Of a stretch of 6,651 bases of DNA, positions 1,738 to 6,618 are shown in pieces. The stretch comes from Gemmatimonadaceae bacterium. Its GTDB lineage: Bacteria > Gemmatimonadota > Gemmatimonadetes > Gemmatimonadales > Gemmatimonadaceae. A program made the translations under genes and the position numbers. The DNA lies in the NCBI GenBank assembly GCA_025451425.1, contig JANWKK010000253.1, positions 1 through 6,651 of the forward strand, given 5' to 3'. Position 1 is the stretch's first letter; each line of letters starts with the position of its first letter. Under the pieces are notes generated by a model, which had not been told where the DNA came from, did not search any database, and saw only the letters and a list, made by a program, of their open reading frames with translations.

Positions 1738-3030
1738 TCAGCTACAGGCGACGAGCGTCGTCATCATTGTGCCGAGCCAGTCGTGCGTGCGCCGAATGCC
1801 CCAGGTGAGGAACGGACGCTGCGCATCGTCAGTTCCGAGGGAAGGATTGAAAGGGTGAGGCCTCGCGTCGATGATCGTGAATGGACTCCAGCCGTTCGAC
1901 CACGAGCTGATGAGCATGCGCTCACCAATCCCGTCGGCGACTACGGTGAGAACAGAGTGGTCTCGTCGCAACAGAGTTTGCAATTCGTTAGCGTTCTCGA
2001 TGAGTGCGGTCGGTGTCGCCCGCTGCCACGTTACGCCACCGTCGAACGATTGAGTTGCGTAGATGCGGCCGGGGCTGCCACCTAACGTGACGCCCGTGGC
2101 GGGATGACCCTGCCGGTCGGTCTGCTGATACCAGAACGCATAGAGAACACCCCGCTCATCGGCGACGAGACGTGCGTCGAAGGCCGGAGCCTCATTGACT
2201 CTCGAGATCGCAATCGGCGCGGACCAGCTTTCGCCGCGATCATCGCTCCTCGTTAGGTACACGCCGGCAATCGCCGGCGCAGGAGGATGAGCAAGATCGC
2301 CCTGGACCATGAGCAGCAGGCGTCCCGAGCTCAATACCGTGATGTGCGGATAGCCCATGTACGCGCTCGGAATGTTCACGTGGCGCTCTGTCCACACGCC
2401 GCTATCCAGGCGCACGTAGCGCAATCCTTCACCCTGTATCGCGACCACGAGGTGCAGTGACCGGCCGTGGGCGACGAGCGGCGAAACCATGGCCGAGTTC
2501 CACATCACCGTTCCTTCGGTCGACAGCACTCGCGTCGGCGCGCTCCATTGCCGCCCGTCGAATCGGCCATACCACAAGCTGCGTACCATGAAGCTCGAGG
2601 ACATCTGCATGTTGTCTCGACTTCCCCAGATGACGTGCCCGATGCCGCTGTCATCGGCCGCTCCAACGGGAAGCCAAGGGCCGGAGAGAATGTCTTTCGG
2701 CCACGGTACCAGCTGAGCGACGCCGTGTCGTTCTACAAGTGCGCCGAGCGGGACATGCTCCACGCTCGAAGGCCTTCCACCAGGTGCGAGGGGCCAGACG
2801 AGGGTGCCTAGCGAGTCGTAGGTGCTCGTGGGCCACGCGGGGAGGAACACCTCGCCGCGCAAAGGAGCAATCGACGGCCGTTCCATGAATACCGTGTAAC
2901 CGTCGCGCGTCCGCACTTCGCGCGGCGGCAACCATCGCTCGCCTGTGCATGGCGAGTCCTGCGCTTGGGCAACGAAAGCGCCGGCGATCAGCGGCACGAG
3001 CGCCGAGAGCACTGCTGCAACGTTCCGCAC
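1738..3030 (-). CDS. Exported Asp-box (BNR/sialidase-like) beta-propeller protein, about 430 aa
   Basis: Two clear Asp-boxes (S-x-D-x-G-x-T/S-W) are present: SDDRGESW at residues 262-269 and SFDGGVTW at 328-335. Weaker blade-like pieces occur near 155-163 (RFDGRQW) and 207-213. Asp-boxes mark blade turns in sialidases and many other propellers. I see no convincing sialidase arginine triad or FRIP motif, so glycosidase activity is not supported; an exported binding or unknown-enzyme propeller is safer. Residues 1-23 are a signal peptide ending AQA. The start is taken as GTG at 3030 because GGAGAGG (3040-3046) lies 9 bases upstream. The ATG at 3054 would add 8 residues (438 aa) but has no ribosome binding site. 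The gene is divergent from the SARP-type regulator and could be its target. Confidence 0.82.
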   Translation of the reverse strand: MRNVAAVLSALVPLIAGAFVAQAQDSPCTGERWLPPREVRTRDGYTVFMERPSIAPLRGEVFLPAWPTSTYDSLGTLVWPLAPGGRPSSVEHVPLGALVERHGVAQLVPWPKDILSGPWLPVGAADDSGIGHVIWGSRDNMQMSSSFMVRSLWYGRFDGRQWSAPTRVLSTEGTVMWNSAMVSPLVAHGRSLHLVVAIQGEGLRYVRLDSGVWTERHVNIPSAYMGYPHITVLSSGRLLLMVQGDLAHPPAPAIAGVYLTRSDDRGESWSAPIAISRVNEAPAFDARLVADERGVLYAFWYQQTDRQGHPATGVTLGGSPGRIYATQSFDGGVTWQRATPTALIENANELQTLLRRDHSVLTVVADGIGERMLISSWSNGWSPFTIIDARPHPFNPSLGTDDAQRPFLTWGIRRTHDWLGTMMTTLVACS

Positions 3031-3056
3031 CGTTATTCGCCTCTCCGATGGCATCT

Positions 3057-3098
3057 CGTCATGCGCCCGACGCTATCGAATACCGTCACGCGCCCGAC
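3057..3098. promoter_or_regulatory. 15-base direct repeat in the divergent promoter region
   Basis: CGTCATGCGCCCGAC (3057-3071) recurs as CGTCACGCGCCCGAC (3084-3098), matching at 14 of 15 bases with starts 27 bases apart. A third partial copy, CGTCAC, begins at 3117. The repeats fill the gap between the propeller gene and the SARP-type regulator gene. SARP proteins are known to bind direct repeats near promoters, so this is a candidate operator for the neighbouring regulator. No convincing -10/-35 pair could be chosen on either strand. Confidence 0.5.
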
Positions 3099-3135
3099 AC
3101 CTCATCTGGCGTGTTGCGTCACCTCACCGCAGCCC

Positions 3136-4848
3136 ATGCTACGAATTCGCACACTCGGAGCGAGCGAGATCACGATCGGCGACGAGCGAATCGGTCCCGA
3201 ACAGCGGACCACATTCGTTCTTCTCCTCCTGCTCGCGACGCGCAGCCCTGCAGCTTGTTCTCGCCGCGAGCTGGCTTCGCTGCTCTGGCCAGACTCGCGC
3301 GAGACCGATCGAAATCACCGCCTTCGTTCCCTGCTCCATCGCCTGCGACGACGTGGAGTTCCGATAGTGTGTGCGGGGACGACGATCGCGCTCGGCGACC
3401 TCACGCTCGACATTGCTGCCTTCGCGCGACCGCCGCGATCGCTGGACGATATTCGCACACGGGTCTGTCTGGTCGGGCCCGTGCTGCCGAACCTCGACGT
3501 AACGTCGCCGGCTGCGCTCGCCGATCGTCTGGACGACGAGCGCGATGTCATCATTGCGACGCTGACACGCTGGCTGCGGACTTCGCTCCACATAGCACGA
3601 TCCGGCGGCGACTGGCCGCTCGTGGAGAAGCTCGCGCGCCTAACGCTGGAGTTGGAAGAAAGCAGCGAGGATGCCTGGCTGAGTTTGGCCGAGGCGCAGG
3701 TGCTTACGTCGGGCAGCGCGGCAGCTCTTCGCACGCTCGACGACTATGCCGCGCGCTTCGCCTTGCGTGAGCCGAGCTTGCCGATGAAGCTCCTTCGCCA
3801 GCGCATCGGCAACCCTCGTATTGCACACGAGGCCAGCATCGATGATCTGCCACTGATTGGCCGTGAAGAGGTCATGCGCCGCATCTGGTCAGCCATCAGT
3901 CGCGCGCGCGAGGGCTACGGCGGTTCCACGCTCCTGTGGGGCCCAGCAGGTATCGGCAAGACGCGCGTGCTGCGAGAAGTCGAGCGTGTGCGAACGATCG
4001 AATCGGTTCGCGTCGTTCGCATTGCAGCGCGGCCGGTGCATGCGCTCCGGCCATTCGCTCTGGTGGTCGACCTCATCGAACGACTACTCGACGAGCCGGG
4101 CGCTGTGGGCTGTGACCCGGACGCGTTCGCGAGGCTCCGCCGCATCGGGTCGATAGCTAACGATGCGCGAGACGCTCTGGCTCCCGATCGTCTCTTCGAT
4201 GACTTCACCGAGTTGCTCGCGGCGCTGGCAGAAGAAACCACCACTCTCGTTCTGATGGACGACATGCATGTCGTCGACACGGCAATCTGGCGATTCTGGA
4301 GCGCCATGTTTCGCTGGTGTATCGATCACCGCGTTCACTGGCTGCTTTGCTATCGGGCGCTCCGCGAGGTGGAGTTGTACTCACTCCCCGAAAGCAGCCT
4401 GCTTCATCGCGTTCCGATGGAATGCCTGGTGCGCACCGACGCCGCGAGGCTCGTCGACGTTGCGCGGTGCGGATACAGTCCGATCACTGTCGACGAGATC
4501 TTTCGTGACGTCGGTGGACATCCAGCGCTGCTTGTGGCGCGCGCGCGCGTCGAGGCCGAACTGCCGCGCTGGACGGAGCCTATCGTTGCCGATTGGATCG
4601 CGCGGATATCGAGTGACCACCTTCAGATTCTGCGGTCGCTCGCCACGTTAGGCGGCTCCGCGACGACGCGGGGGCTGATCGATCTTGGAATCGTCGGCCG
4701 CAGCGAGCTGGTCGCGGCGCTTGGCGAGCTGGCACGATACGGCATGGTCCACGAGGCCAGTGGCATCGTGTACGCCCATGGCGTCTGGGCCGACGCGGCG
4801 CTTGCCGCCCAGGGACGCACTGGTCAATTCGCGATACACCTCGACTGA
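3136..4848 (+). CDS. SARP/BTAD-type transcriptional regulator with AAA/STAND ATPase domain, 570 aa
   Basis: Residues 1-95 form an OmpR/SARP-type winged helix: the opening LRIRTLG strand, then ELASLLWPD followed by a basic recognition region (HRLRSLLHRLRRR, 61-73). Residues about 100-228 are a helical bacterial-transcriptional-activator (TPR-like) domain. The ATPase follows: domain entry LIGREE at 240-245, Walker A GPAGIGKT at 269-276, Walker B LVLMDD at 371-376 and a STAND-like GGHPALL at 460-466, then a winged-helix-like part up to about 555. Family members often run to about 1000 residues with C-terminal repeats; this one stops at 570, so the sensor region is absent or lost. The start is placed at 3136 because the conserved domain begins there; no good ribosome binding site is seen, and ATGs at 3061 and 2965 are in frame. 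It is divergent from the propeller gene and probably regulates it (inference). Confidence 0.88.
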   Translation: MLRIRTLGASEITIGDERIGPEQRTTFVLLLLLATRSPAACSRRELASLLWPDSRETDRNHRLRSLLHRLRRRGVPIVCAGTTIALGDLTLDIAAFARPPRSLDDIRTRVCLVGPVLPNLDVTSPAALADRLDDERDVIIATLTRWLRTSLHIARSGGDWPLVEKLARLTLELEESSEDAWLSLAEAQVLTSGSAAALRTLDDYAARFALREPSLPMKLLRQRIGNPRIAHEASIDDLPLIGREEVMRRIWSAISRAREGYGGSTLLWGPAGIGKTRVLREVERVRTIESVRVVRIAARPVHALRPFALVVDLIERLLDEPGAVGCDPDAFARLRRIGSIANDARDALAPDRLFDDFTELLAALAEETTTLVLMDDMHVVDTAIWRFWSAMFRWCIDHRVHWLLCYRALREVELYSLPESSLLHRVPMECLVRTDAARLVDVARCGYSPITVDEIFRDVGGHPALLVARARVEAELPRWTEPIVADWIARISSDHLQILRSLATLGGSATTRGLIDLGIVGRSELVAALGELARYGMVHEASGIVYAHGVWADAALAAQGRTGQFAIHLD

Positions 4849-4880: not shown

Positions 4881-5789
4881 CTACAACGACTCGCCGCCGA
4901 TCAGAGCCGCCATGATGGCCTTCTGAATGTGCAGGCGATTCTCGGCCTCGTCCCACACGCGACTTTGCGGGCCGTCGATGACGTCGGCGCCCACTTCCTC
5001 ACCGCGGTGCGCAGGCAGGCAATGGAGAAAGATCGCCTTCTTCGACGCGCGCTTCATGAGCTTCGCGTTCACCGTATAGTTGGCGAAGGCCCGCGCGCGC
5101 TCGCGCTGCTCGTCCTCCTGACCCATCGACGCCCAGACGTCGGTATTCACCACGTCGGCGCCATCGGCCGCTTCCATCGGATCGCGCACGACACGGACCT
5201 TCGCGGTCTTGAGCGCGCGCGCGAGCAAGTGATCAGCAGGCTCGTATCCTTCCGGACAGGCGAGCGTGAGATCGAATCCAAACACATATGCGGCGTTGAT
5301 CCACGAATTCGCCATGTTATTACCGTCGCCGATCCACGCGTAGCGCAATTTGTCGATATCACCGAGCTGCTGCCTAACGGTGAGTAAGTCGGCGAGCACC
5401 TGGCACGGATGCACGAGGTCGGTGAGTCCATTGATCACGGGGACCGACGCGTACTTCGAGAGCTCCTCGATATCCTGGTGGGCGAACGTGCGAAGCATGA
5501 TTCCGTCGACGTACCGCGAGAGCACACGCGCCGTGTCCGCGATCGGCTCGCCGCGTCCGAGCTGGACGTCGCGCGGAGAGAGGAAGAGCGCGTGGCCGCC
5601 GAGCTGATAGGTGCCAACCTCGAACGACACGCGCGTCCGCGTCGACGATTTCATGAAGATCATCGCGAGCGACTTTCCTTCGAGCGGCCGCTTCTTGTAC
5701 TTGCCGGCTTTCATCTTGTCGGCGATGTCGAACAGGCTCGTGATCTCGTCGCGGGAGAAGTCGGGGATCTGGAGAAAGTCGCGTTCCAT
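4881..5789 (-). CDS. argF: Ornithine carbamoyltransferase
   Basis: The enzyme makes citrulline from ornithine and carbamoyl phosphate in cytoplasmic arginine synthesis. Carbamoyl-phosphate-binding residues are seen in SSTRTR (48-53), MLRTFAH with R100 and H104, and HPCQ (127-130). The ornithine side shows DGNN (155-158) and DVWASMG (217-223), and the catalytic loop is HCLPAHRGEEV (256-266). The SMG motif points to ornithine rather than N-acetylornithine as substrate. At 302 residues the length is normal. The start at 5789 gives the usual MERDFLQIPDFS opening; the frame stays open to an ATG at 5909, but the extra 40 residues match nothing expected and lie in GCGAG-rich DNA. No ribosome binding site is visible before 5789. 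No other arginine gene is adjacent. The gene converges on the SARP-type regulator gene, with 32 bases between the stop codons and no terminator seen. Confidence 0.96.
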   Translation of the reverse strand: MERDFLQIPDFSRDEITSLFDIADKMKAGKYKKRPLEGKSLAMIFMKSSTRTRVSFEVGTYQLGGHALFLSPRDVQLGRGEPIADTARVLSRYVDGIMLRTFAHQDIEELSKYASVPVINGLTDLVHPCQVLADLLTVRQQLGDIDKLRYAWIGDGNNMANSWINAAYVFGFDLTLACPEGYEPADHLLARALKTAKVRVVRDPMEAADGADVVNTDVWASMGQEDEQRERARAFANYTVNAKLMKRASKKAIFLHCLPAHRGEEVGADVIDGPQSRVWDEAENRLHIQKAIMAALIGGESL

Positions 5790-5796
5790 TCGAGTG

Positions 5797-5878
5797 GCGA
5801 GTGATGCGAGAGGAGTGGGAGCGAGCGCGCGAGCGACATCAAATAGCATCTCGCGAGCGCCAGCGAGCGAGTGGCGAG
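5797..5878. repeat. GCGAG-rich low-complexity leader of argF
   Basis: The pentamer GCGAG occurs eight times in 82 bases (starts 5797, 5806, 5821, 5829, 5853, 5863, 5867, 5874), and CGAGTGGCGAG is repeated at 5791-5801 and 5868-5878. In argF mRNA these read CUCGC. They begin just before the argF start codon, where a ribosome binding site would be expected. Presence is certain; whether it is a degenerate repeat, a protein-binding leader or chance composition is unknown. The remainder of the leader, 5879-6018, shows no clear structure or ARG-box-like palindrome. Confidence 0.5.
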
Positions 5879-6024
5879 CAAGTCGATAAGCTAGCAAATC
5901 TCGCAACATCCAAGAGGTCAGGCGGTCTGCAACGGCTGATGGGTGTCAGGTTCCTGCACAGCGCGTCGGAAGTGGGTGCTCGCCCGCGACTTAGCCGCGG
6001 CGCACGGTTGGGCCCGAGCGTTGC

Positions 6025-6032
6025 TTTATACG
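6025..6032. promoter_or_regulatory. Possible shared -10 region for argF and the riboswitch transcript
   Basis: This is the main AT-rich spot between argF and the aptamer. On the minus strand it reads TATAAA (6030-6025), a good -10 for argF that implies a leader of about 230 bases. On the plus strand it reads TATACG (6027-6032), a weaker -10 upstream of the aptamer. No good -35 at 16-18 base spacing was found in either direction, so this is tentative. Confidence 0.3.
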
Positions 6033-6055
6033 AGGCCAAACTGAAACACCGTCTC

Positions 6056-6148
6056 ACTCGATACTAGCACACCCGTCGCGAGGCGGGGCCGCAAAGCCAG
6101 GAGCGTCGAAGGGCAAGATGCCCGACGAGGTCGTCCGGTTGCCGAAGG
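6056..6148 (+). ncRNA. GEMM-I (cyclic-di-GMP-I class) riboswitch aptamer
   Basis: The RNA matches the GEMM-I architecture recalled from the Vibrio cholerae Vc2 aptamer. A 6-base-pair stem CCCGUC/GGCGGG (6072-6077, 6082-6087) is closed by a GNRA loop GCGA (6078-6081). Two bases later comes the signature CGCAAAGCC (6090-6098). A P3 hairpin follows: CGUC/GACG (6104-6107, 6124-6127) around GGGC/GCCC (6111-6114, 6120-6123). The conserved 3' element GGUUGCCGA lies at 6137-6145. Aligned without gaps to Vc2, ligand-contact A47 is A6093 and C92 is C6142, both conserved, while the G20 equivalent is A6066. GCACACC at 6067-6073 matches the GCAAACC element at six of seven positions. The usual P3 tetraloop-receptor sequence is not obvious. 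The 5' boundary and P1 are uncertain. A terminator and a small gene follow on the same strand, as expected for a cis-regulator. Confidence 0.78.
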
Positions 6149-6219
6149 TGAGCCAAGCCGCGCTTGGCCGGTCCGATCGTGAGATCGACCCGCAAGCGCG
6201 CCTCGACCTCCAAGGCATC
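6117..6219 (+). promoter_or_regulatory. Predicted antiterminator pairing between aptamer P3 and the terminator 5' arm
   Basis: GAUGCC (6117-6122) is complementary to GGCAUC (6214-6219), and GAGGUCG (6127-6133) is complementary to CGACCUC (6204-6210). The two blocks are collinear and antiparallel, with a 4/3 internal loop, so they can form one 13-pair interrupted helix. It would break the aptamer P3 and capture the terminator 5' arm. The looped-out part contains two local hairpins: GCCAAGC/GCUUGGC (6152-6158, 6162-6168) and a GUGA-capped stem at 6170-6190. The pairing is exact in sequence; formation in the cell is inference. Confidence 0.6.
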
Positions 6220-6262
6220 CACGCTGAGCGGCACGCTTCCGACTCACGCGAGATGCCTTTTT
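6212..6262 (+). terminator. Intrinsic terminator in the riboswitch expression platform
   Basis: The outer stem AAGGCAUC/GAUGCCUU (6212-6219, 6252-6259) is perfect over 8 pairs. Inner helices follow: CGC/GCG, then UGAG/CUCA with one bulged C, then CGG/CCG. A run of five T (6258-6262) and then CGTTTT completes a classic intrinsic terminator. It lies between the aptamer and the 67-residue gene, so it would act as an attenuator rather than as the end of a gene. No coding region ends just before it. Confidence 0.82.
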
Positions 6263-6304
6263 CGTTTTACTCGACTCGCCGCGATGACGCGGGAGGAGGT
6301 CAGA

Positions 6305-6508
6305 ATGTTCACACTTGGAACCAAACGCTCGGCGAACGCATTCGCCGATCTCGAGGCCCAGCTGCGCGCGTTAGGCGCGAGCGGCGACCGCCTCGCCGAA
6401 GCGACGACGTCGCTTCGGGCGTCCGCAAGAATTTTTGCCGCGGCTTCGGCCCGCCTGCGTACAAGCGCAGTGCGCCAGTTCACGCGGCCGGCACTGAAGC
6501 TGGTGTAA
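6305..6508 (+). CDS. Small protein of unknown function under riboswitch control, 67 aa
   Basis: I do not recognise a family. The protein is basic and alanine/arginine-rich, with no membrane segment and no cysteine. Residues about 12-53 look like one or two amphipathic helices (ADLEAQLRALG near the start, then SLRASARIF and ASARLR), compatible with a coiled coil or a nucleic-acid or membrane-surface binder, none of which is shown. The start is supported by GGAGGAGGT at 6292-6300, 4 bases before the ATG, among the best ribosome binding sites in the window. In-frame ATGs at 6164 and 6284 are less likely: the first would translate through the terminator, and the second lies just before the ribosome binding site. 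It is the first gene after the aptamer and terminator, so it is the direct candidate target. It contains one TTA leucine codon within a CGTTAGG heptamer. Confidence 0.72.
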   Translation: MFTLGTKRSANAFADLEAQLRALGASGDRLAEATTSLRASARIFAAASARLRTSAVRQFTRPALKLV

Positions 6509-6577
6509 TCGAAGGATTGGGGGAACAGAGGGGAGAGACAGGCAGCGTTGCGGTTGAGGGGCCGCCCGCTGCGACTG

Positions 6578-6608
6578 AGCAGGTCGGCGAATTGTTCGCC
6601 GGCCTGCT
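6578..6608 (+). terminator. Strong 14-pair hairpin after the small gene, possible terminator
   Basis: Bases 6578-6591 pair with 6595-6608 over 14 pairs including one G-U, with a three-base UUG loop. The sequence after it (TAGGTTTGTT) is only partly T-rich, so termination is possible but not certain. It begins 69 bases after the small gene's stop codon. A reading frame open to the right edge runs across it, so it could also lie inside a coding region. Confidence 0.45.
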
Positions 6609-6618
6609 TAGGTTTGTT

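Follow-up and report, generated by a model that had tools for sequence, protein, structure and literature searches.

The locus and its orthologues

The window analyzed here, the whole stretch of 6,651 nucleotides, is Gemmatimonadota-like, judging from its ornithine carbamoyltransferase (positions 4881-5909, minus strand), which is 75-76% identical to Gemmatimonadetes MAG proteins. Positions 2965-4848 encode an AAA_16 ATPase, which also has a weak Trans_reg_C match under the cut-off for that family. A riboswitch leader adjoins the carbamoyltransferase gene divergently, and 3' of this leader lies a small gene of 67 codons. The features on either side of the riboswitch are:

6018-6030, plus strand: promoter-like block GCGTTGCTTTATA, shared without any change by the window and the three orthologues
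6305-6508, plus strand: conserved gene encoding a 67-aa protein
6575-6611, plus strand: terminator-like hairpin 3' of the small gene

The block at 6018-6030 is a putative promoter and was not listed by the sigma-70 promoter scan.

When 395 genomes from the phylum were searched at the DNA level, orthologous leaders were identified in G249 (90% identity), G364 (87%), and G393 (83%), the three genomes that matched over most of the query, and a protein search recovered the same three among 179 genomes of the family. At all three loci the carbamoyltransferase gene is divergent, and downstream there is a gene on the other strand that was named by eye as HslU-like. At these loci the hslU-like gene and argF flank the riboswitch and small gene, which are on the opposite strand, so that the leader would be antisense to a possible hslU-argF transcript. 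At locus L001, an hslU-like gene (by eye) and argF are adjacent, approximately 25 bases apart. The window and its three orthologues are too closely related to count as independent, and because only three full orthologues were found, covariation among them is not decisive.

The small gene is coding, since the orthologues differ from the window mostly in the third position of codons (2/0/12, 9/2/26, and 12/6/23 at positions 1/2/3 over the first 56 codons of the three orthologues). A protein search in the correct frame returned 108 homologues, all unnamed or hypothetical. The protein has no Pfam match above cut-off (two weak matches, E 0.037 and 0.046) and no match in an NCBIfam scan, and its AlphaFold model consists of two helices at low confidence (pLDDT 68.6). 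A pattern search of viral contigs returned 508 stretches, none of which encoded a relative.

A c-di-GMP-I family aptamer

The preliminary description recognized a GEMM-I-like aptamer in the leader, and a covariance-model search bears this out. The leader carries a c-di-GMP-I (GEMM-I) family aptamer by its match to RF01051 at 6056-6146 (47.4 bits, E 2.7e-8, gathering threshold 35), and this was the one family returned by a gathering-threshold Rfam scan of 5950-6400. The three orthologous leaders score 47.9-49.1 bits against the same model. The elements of this region are:

6053-6057, plus strand: 5' strand of P1, CUCAC
6056-6146, plus strand: c-di-GMP-I (GEMM-I) family aptamer
6066, plus strand: A at the equivalent of Vc2 G20, a ligand contact
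6093, plus strand: presumed equivalent of Vc2 A47
6142, plus strand: presumed equivalent of Vc2 C92
6148-6152, plus strand: 3' strand of P1, GUGAG
6159-6200, plus strand: hairpin between aptamer and terminator (CGCGCUUG...CAAGCGCG), with inner GGUC/GACC and CGAUC/GAUCG

Position 6142, in a UGCC that is invariant in all four sequences, is what we take to be the equivalent of C92 in the Vc2 sequence, and 6093, which we take to be the equivalent of A47, was placed partly on the same sequence. The C92 position is C in 63/63 parsed aptamers, a count that carries no evidential weight as it is built into the search pattern.

The window shares with RF01051 riboswitches the P1/P2/P3 plan and the A47 and C92 equivalents (the latter as we place it), in addition to the covariance match over gathering, but differs from them at position 20, which is A and not G, and in the P2 tetraloop, which is GCGA where the consensus has GAAA. 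The aptamer core is invariant in the window and the three orthologues, as is the inner CGAUC/GAUCG of the hairpin that follows it. P1 retains 5/5 pairs in the window, G364, and G393 and 4/5 in G249. Counted in one fixed register over 63 parsed aptamers, it averages 2.6/5 pairs versus 1.6-2.2 when the strands are slid, a mild support given that the register varies between subgroups and that 13 of 76 aptamers were unparsed.

A related family, RF03167 (c-di-GMP-I-GGC), ranked first in a permissive scan of the whole window with the best E-value (48.6 bits, E 2.3e-9), but this score is below its gathering threshold of 59, and its consensus has G where the window has the A47 equivalent. The same model finds related loci (E up to 1e-4) in 200/395 genomes of the phylum, 92 of them over cut-off; by these matches, the phylum commonly carries GEMM-I-related aptamers. 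A single genome (G351) has as many as 11 RF03167 matches, and lipoprotein-like genes (by eye) lie downstream at many of the loci fetched. A literature search that left most subscription papers outside its reach found no paper on the c-di-GMP riboswitches of this phylum.

A conserved terminator-like hairpin

The intrinsic terminator that had been placed 3' of the aptamer is likewise borne out, its stem and T-rich tail being kept in 4/4 sequences. It consists of the following parts:

6212-6219, plus strand: terminator 5' arm AAGGCAUC
6252-6259, plus strand: terminator 3' arm GAUGCCUU, pairing with 6212-6219
6258-6268, plus strand: U-tract TTTTTCGTTTT, whose two leading T are paired within the stem

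The stem has 8/8 pairs in the window, G364, and G393 and 7/8 in G249, with further pairs above it. The fold of 6200-6268 has a z of -3.38, and none of 200 shuffles was as good. Across the orthologues this stem is kept, and drift and indels are seen above it, in the upper stem and the loop. T-scores of the tails are 3.95 in the window, 2.52 in G249, 2.75 in G364, and 2.42 in G393, levels reached at 4.5e-5, 0.0022, 0.0013, and 0.0027, respectively, of 355,452 sampled positions (from 0.54 Mb of fetched sequence, taken on both strands, with overlapping loci counted repeatedly). Relative to random positions in these sequences, strong hairpins are followed approximately 9, 23, and 40 times more often by tails scoring at least 2.0, 2.5, and 2.9, a comparison somewhat biased in favor of hairpins in that scoring of hairpin and leader tails, unlike that of random positions, began at the base following the final non-T in the 3' arm. 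The element is by these properties a conserved intrinsic-terminator-like hairpin, GC-rich and followed by a U-tract, between the aptamer and the gene. The orthologue tails are interrupted (TTTCGCG, TTTCGTA), making the strength of termination in those genomes uncertain.

Which aptamer strand could capture the terminator arm

In the preliminary description the antiterminator was formed by aptamer P3. The complementarities on which this proposal was built are exact: GGCATC (6214-6219) matches GATGCC both at 6252-6257 and at 6117-6122, and CGACCTC (6204-6210) matches GAGGTCG (6127-6133) in collinear register, letter for letter. These 13 exact pairs in two collinear blocks would speak for an antiterminator made by P3 strand 6117-6133 with 6204-6219, and in-register pairs are kept in 80.8% of cells versus 22-37% when slid, with the structure derived from the window itself. 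In the relatives, however, the pairs break without a single compensatory change: 13/13 stand in the window, 10/13 in G249, 11/13 in G364, and 8/13 in G393, and three of the six GAUGCC pairs and two of the seven GAGGUCG pairs are broken in at least one orthologue. Nor is the 13-bp two-block match in the window clearly beyond chance, as 45/2000 dinucleotide shuffles contained an aptamer-spacer match of at least 13 bp. Forcing the P3 state at length 6263, using the pairs that each sequence can form (only 8 in G393), places it above the free ensemble by 8.8 kcal/mol in the window, 7.6 in G249, 6.5 in G364, and 24.3 in G393. Its predicted probability is near zero at 13 transcript lengths, the highest values being 0.05 for the second block in the window and 0.25 for one block in G364. 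Given the broken pairs, the energy cost, and the low predicted probability, we rejected 6117-6133 as a conserved switch strand and consider it very unlikely. What survives of the earlier switch proposal is a GEMM-I-family aptamer and a terminator whose 5' arm an aptamer strand could capture; that strand is not the one named.

A better candidate is the 3' strand of the aptamer:

6140-6149, plus strand: candidate switching strand, comprising UGCC (6140-6143), complementary to 6214-6217, and AGGU (6146-6149), complementary to 6206-6209

In transcripts ending at 6230 and 6245, which do not yet include the terminator 3' arm, UGCC is predicted to pair with GGCA (6214-6217) in 4/4 sequences, with a probability of 0.61-0.97. 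In folding of the growing transcript it reaches 0.64-0.93 at lengths 6222-6250, P1 being nearly lost meanwhile, and falls to 0 when the aptamer is held. As the UGCC contains the putative C92 equivalent and adjoins P1, this pairing should exclude ligand binding. The second part, in which AGGU pairs with ACCU (6206-6209), could form in each of the four sequences and is predicted at 0.71-0.82 in the window and 0.00-0.14 in the orthologues.

This 3'-strand antiterminator is a prediction from folding models, and the controls on it are weak. Shuffled tails capture the UGCC at least as well in 15/200 cases and P1 is lost in 172/200; a 4+4 match of this type arises in 544/2000 shuffles; and the duplex of A by T strands is equaled by 62-275 of 500 composition shuffles in the four leaders. 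The antiterminator pairs are invariant in the four sequences, and in the RNAalifold consensus fold of these sequences 0/74 pairs have a change on both sides. At length 6262 holding the aptamer raises the G249 terminator from 0.21 to 0.85, and the terminators of the window, G364, and G393 stand at approximately 0.96 in either state. In these three, holding the aptamer thus changes the terminator little, and it changes the helix at the ribosome-binding site (see below) equally little, so that any ligand dependence would have to be kinetic. We regard 6140-6149 as the better, if unproven, candidate.

Two further pairings were set aside: a conserved alternative of 6135-6140 with 6166-6171 had a predicted probability of 0 at all lengths tested, and an RNAduplex comparison of aptamer against spacer was uninformative from G+C content, 175/1000 shuffles being as good.

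Loci L107, L234, and L240 each have a G20 aptamer before a glycerate-kinase-like gene (by eye), with a terminator-like hairpin. At L107 and L240 the aptamer 3' end CUGCC(A/G) faces (U/C)GGCAG just before the hairpin, with one matching change between the two loci, and L234 has one mismatch in this pairing. The pattern may represent a parallel case of 3'-strand capture.

Complementarity to the Shine-Dalgarno sequence

The segment that includes the ACCU also has a second possible partner, which the earlier account of the switch missed:

6205-6211, plus strand: anti-Shine-Dalgarno (anti-SD) GACCUCC, with 7/7 pairs to GGAGGUC (6295-6301) in 4/4 sequences
6292-6301, plus strand: Shine-Dalgarno (SD) GGAGGAGGUC, invariant in 4/4

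From this complete complementarity in all four sequences, control may act on translation as well as transcription. The anti-SD helix is part of the RNAalifold consensus fold, stacked directly under the terminator hairpin, and has a probability of 0.70-0.95 in free leaders extending to 6312 and of 0.25-0.97 at length 6303. Holding the aptamer shifts it, in the four leaders, from 0.93 to 0.97, 0.95 to 0.97, 0.90 to 0.96, and 0.70 to 0.70. As both sides are invariant, giving no covariation signal, and as an SD is easily matched (by its CCUCC run, 154/1000 shuffles pair with the SD as well), we regard the helix as suggestive. Dual transcription-translation control has been reported for the c-di-GMP-I riboswitch Bc1, where the two levels are driven oppositely and the assays described showed no response to c-di-GMP (PMC11218506).

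Control could be mainly translational, with GACCUCC sequestering the SD, the hairpin bringing the two together, and termination a minor effect. The 7/7 pairs in four sequences, the stacking directly beneath the hairpin, and the U-tracts of the orthologues, broken by CGCG or CGTA, fit such an arrangement. On the other hand, the tails are T-rich in 4/4 at levels found at no more than 0.28% of sampled positions, the CCUCC-SD pairing comes easily by chance, and the helix at length 6303 reaches only 0.25 in G364. We consider mainly translational control unlikely.

The ligand pocket

In Vc2, position 20 contacts the ligand together with A47 and C92 (PMC4744006). The spacings given in that source were also used in placing 6093, and they put A 6066 27 nt before it. 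Where the RF01051 consensus has G, the window and all three orthologues have A, a difference likewise missed in the preliminary description, and U19-A20 is common to the four sequences, away from consensus. Of the c-di-GMP-I contact set G20/A47/C92, the window therefore has the A47 and C92 equivalents and A at position 20, and we file it as an RF01051 family member with a variant pocket and not as a proven c-di-GMP sensor.

A at position 20, preceded by U, is the arrangement of the GEMM-Ib 3',3'-cGAMP riboswitches of Geobacter (PMC6456294, PMC7288161), where A14 of structure 4YAZ is equated with position 20 by our own reading. Changing A20 to G converts a Geobacter cGAMP riboswitch to c-di-GMP (PMC6456294), and cGAMP riboswitches can bind c-di-GMP too (PMC9262584). 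The present leader differs from the GEMM-Ib examples in belonging to another phylum and in its genomic context. The three orthologue genomes, whose completeness was not given, encode 28 GGDEF domains (E up to 1e-10). At what we take to be the place of the specificity site within the GHxxGD motif, 25 of these have Asp and three have Glu, and none has the Ser/Thr of Hypr-type enzymes; the site is that of PleD D344 (PMC7288161). SMODS (DncV-like) proteins were found in none of the three orthologue genomes and in one of 17 genomes with an A20 aptamer. Neither type of recognized cGAMP synthase was thus found in the orthologue genomes, which speaks against a cGAMP reading, and A at position 20 without such a synthase is the uncommon feature of this riboswitch. 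Its signal is probably a cyclic dinucleotide: A20 may tolerate c-di-GMP, or 3',3'-cGAMP may be made without a recognized synthase.

Aptamers with A at position 20 across the phylum

A strict pattern for A20 aptamers returned 47 rows in 45 of the 395 genomes, of which 27 rows were judged real by a spacing filter and a hairpin seen by eye; given the strictness of the pattern, 27/395 genomes is a lower bound. Among 79 parsed hits, three (L184, L079, and L203) were dropped as not being aptamers, leaving 76. Of these, 47 carry G20, and the 29 with A20, a share inflated by the targeted search, are made up of the 27, L082, and the window. The parse was limited to the canonical P2 length and core letters, and several fetched aptamers are missing from it, for example L084 (A20 by eye).

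Four of the 29 A20 aptamers, those of the window and its orthologues, precede the 67-aa small gene. STAS-domain genes (Pfam) follow 14 of the 29 (L125, L126, L128, L129, L131-L135, L143, L148, L149, L223, and L082), which suggests a cyclic-dinucleotide input to partner-switching regulators. Three G20 aptamers (L112, L137, and L142) also precede STAS genes, so the base at position 20 differs within one target group. The genes downstream of A20 aptamers L165, L170, and L171 are PilX-like by eye and without a Pfam match.

These aptamers could form a Gemmatimonadota A20 subfamily of GEMM-I that senses 3',3'-cGAMP or another dinucleotide other than c-di-GMP, made by a synthase that is neither a Hypr GGDEF nor SMODS. 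We hold this to be a minority prospect; if true, it would place a cGAMP-type regulon beyond Geobacter, one whose enzyme is missing. The position-20 change could also have cost the aptamer its binding, leaving a vestigial aptamer in a constitutive attenuator. U19-A20 is off consensus in the window and three orthologues and the terminator is predicted regardless of the aptamer in 3/4 sequences, as a vestige might have it, but the aptamer core is invariant in 4/4 and A20 recurs with intact cores in 27/395 genomes before varied targets, and we judge the loss of binding very unlikely.

Direction of control

The C. difficile riboswitch Cd1 is a transcriptional OFF riboswitch in which aptamer and terminator coexist; its antiterminator uses T, A, and H strands, joining the terminator strands to the aptamer 3' strand (PMC9262584). 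In the present leader, too, aptamer and terminator can coexist, and the terminator 5' strand is predicted to be capturable by the aptamer 3' strand. It differs from Cd1, as described there, in that the downstream element also carries an anti-SD, in position 20 of the pocket, and in being known from its sequence alone. Because the terminator 5' arm could be captured by an aptamer strand, the analogy with Cd1 predicts an OFF switch. The OFF direction put forward in the preliminary description is reasonable on this ground, still as an inference, and not through the P3 strand exchange from which it was derived.

An ON switch, in which the ligand prevents the terminator, would resemble the Geobacter pilM cGAMP riboswitch. 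That riboswitch is an ON switch (PMC9262584), and A at position 20 is common to cGAMP riboswitches and this leader. The pilM riboswitch has a different platform, with aptamer and terminator mutually exclusive (PMC9262584), whereas here they are separate segments that can coexist, as in Cd1. An ON switch is accordingly improbable in our view.

We give an even chance to a riboswitch of the GEMM-I family that turns OFF in the manner of Cd1, with the aptamer 3' strand capturing the terminator arm and the anti-SD. Its aptamer family, its conserved hairpin with a T-rich tail, the conserved anti-SD complementarity, and A20 can all be read from the leader itself; we infer the direction, the ligand, and the two-level control. 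Without ligand, 6140-6149, comprising the putative C92 contact and part of P1, would pair with GGCA (6214-6217) and ACCU (6206-6209), so that the terminator arm and the anti-SD would both be occupied and the small gene would be made. With ligand, P1 would close and C92 would be bound, so that GGCAUC could pair in the terminator and GACCUCC with the SD; the gene would then be OFF at transcription and, in read-through RNA, at translation.

The riboswitch is of a known type and, by the analogy with Cd1, probably shuts the small gene OFF. A conserved 67-aa family of hypothetical proteins thereby gains a likely cyclic-dinucleotide input. The leader would be a compact one, with one short segment suggested to serve both terminator capture and masking of the ribosome site, and if the anti-SD is real, the segment freed by the ligand would lower both transcription and translation. 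The occurrence of A20 in the window and in 28 other parsed aptamers, three of them the orthologous leaders, raises a direct question about the ligand of these riboswitches.
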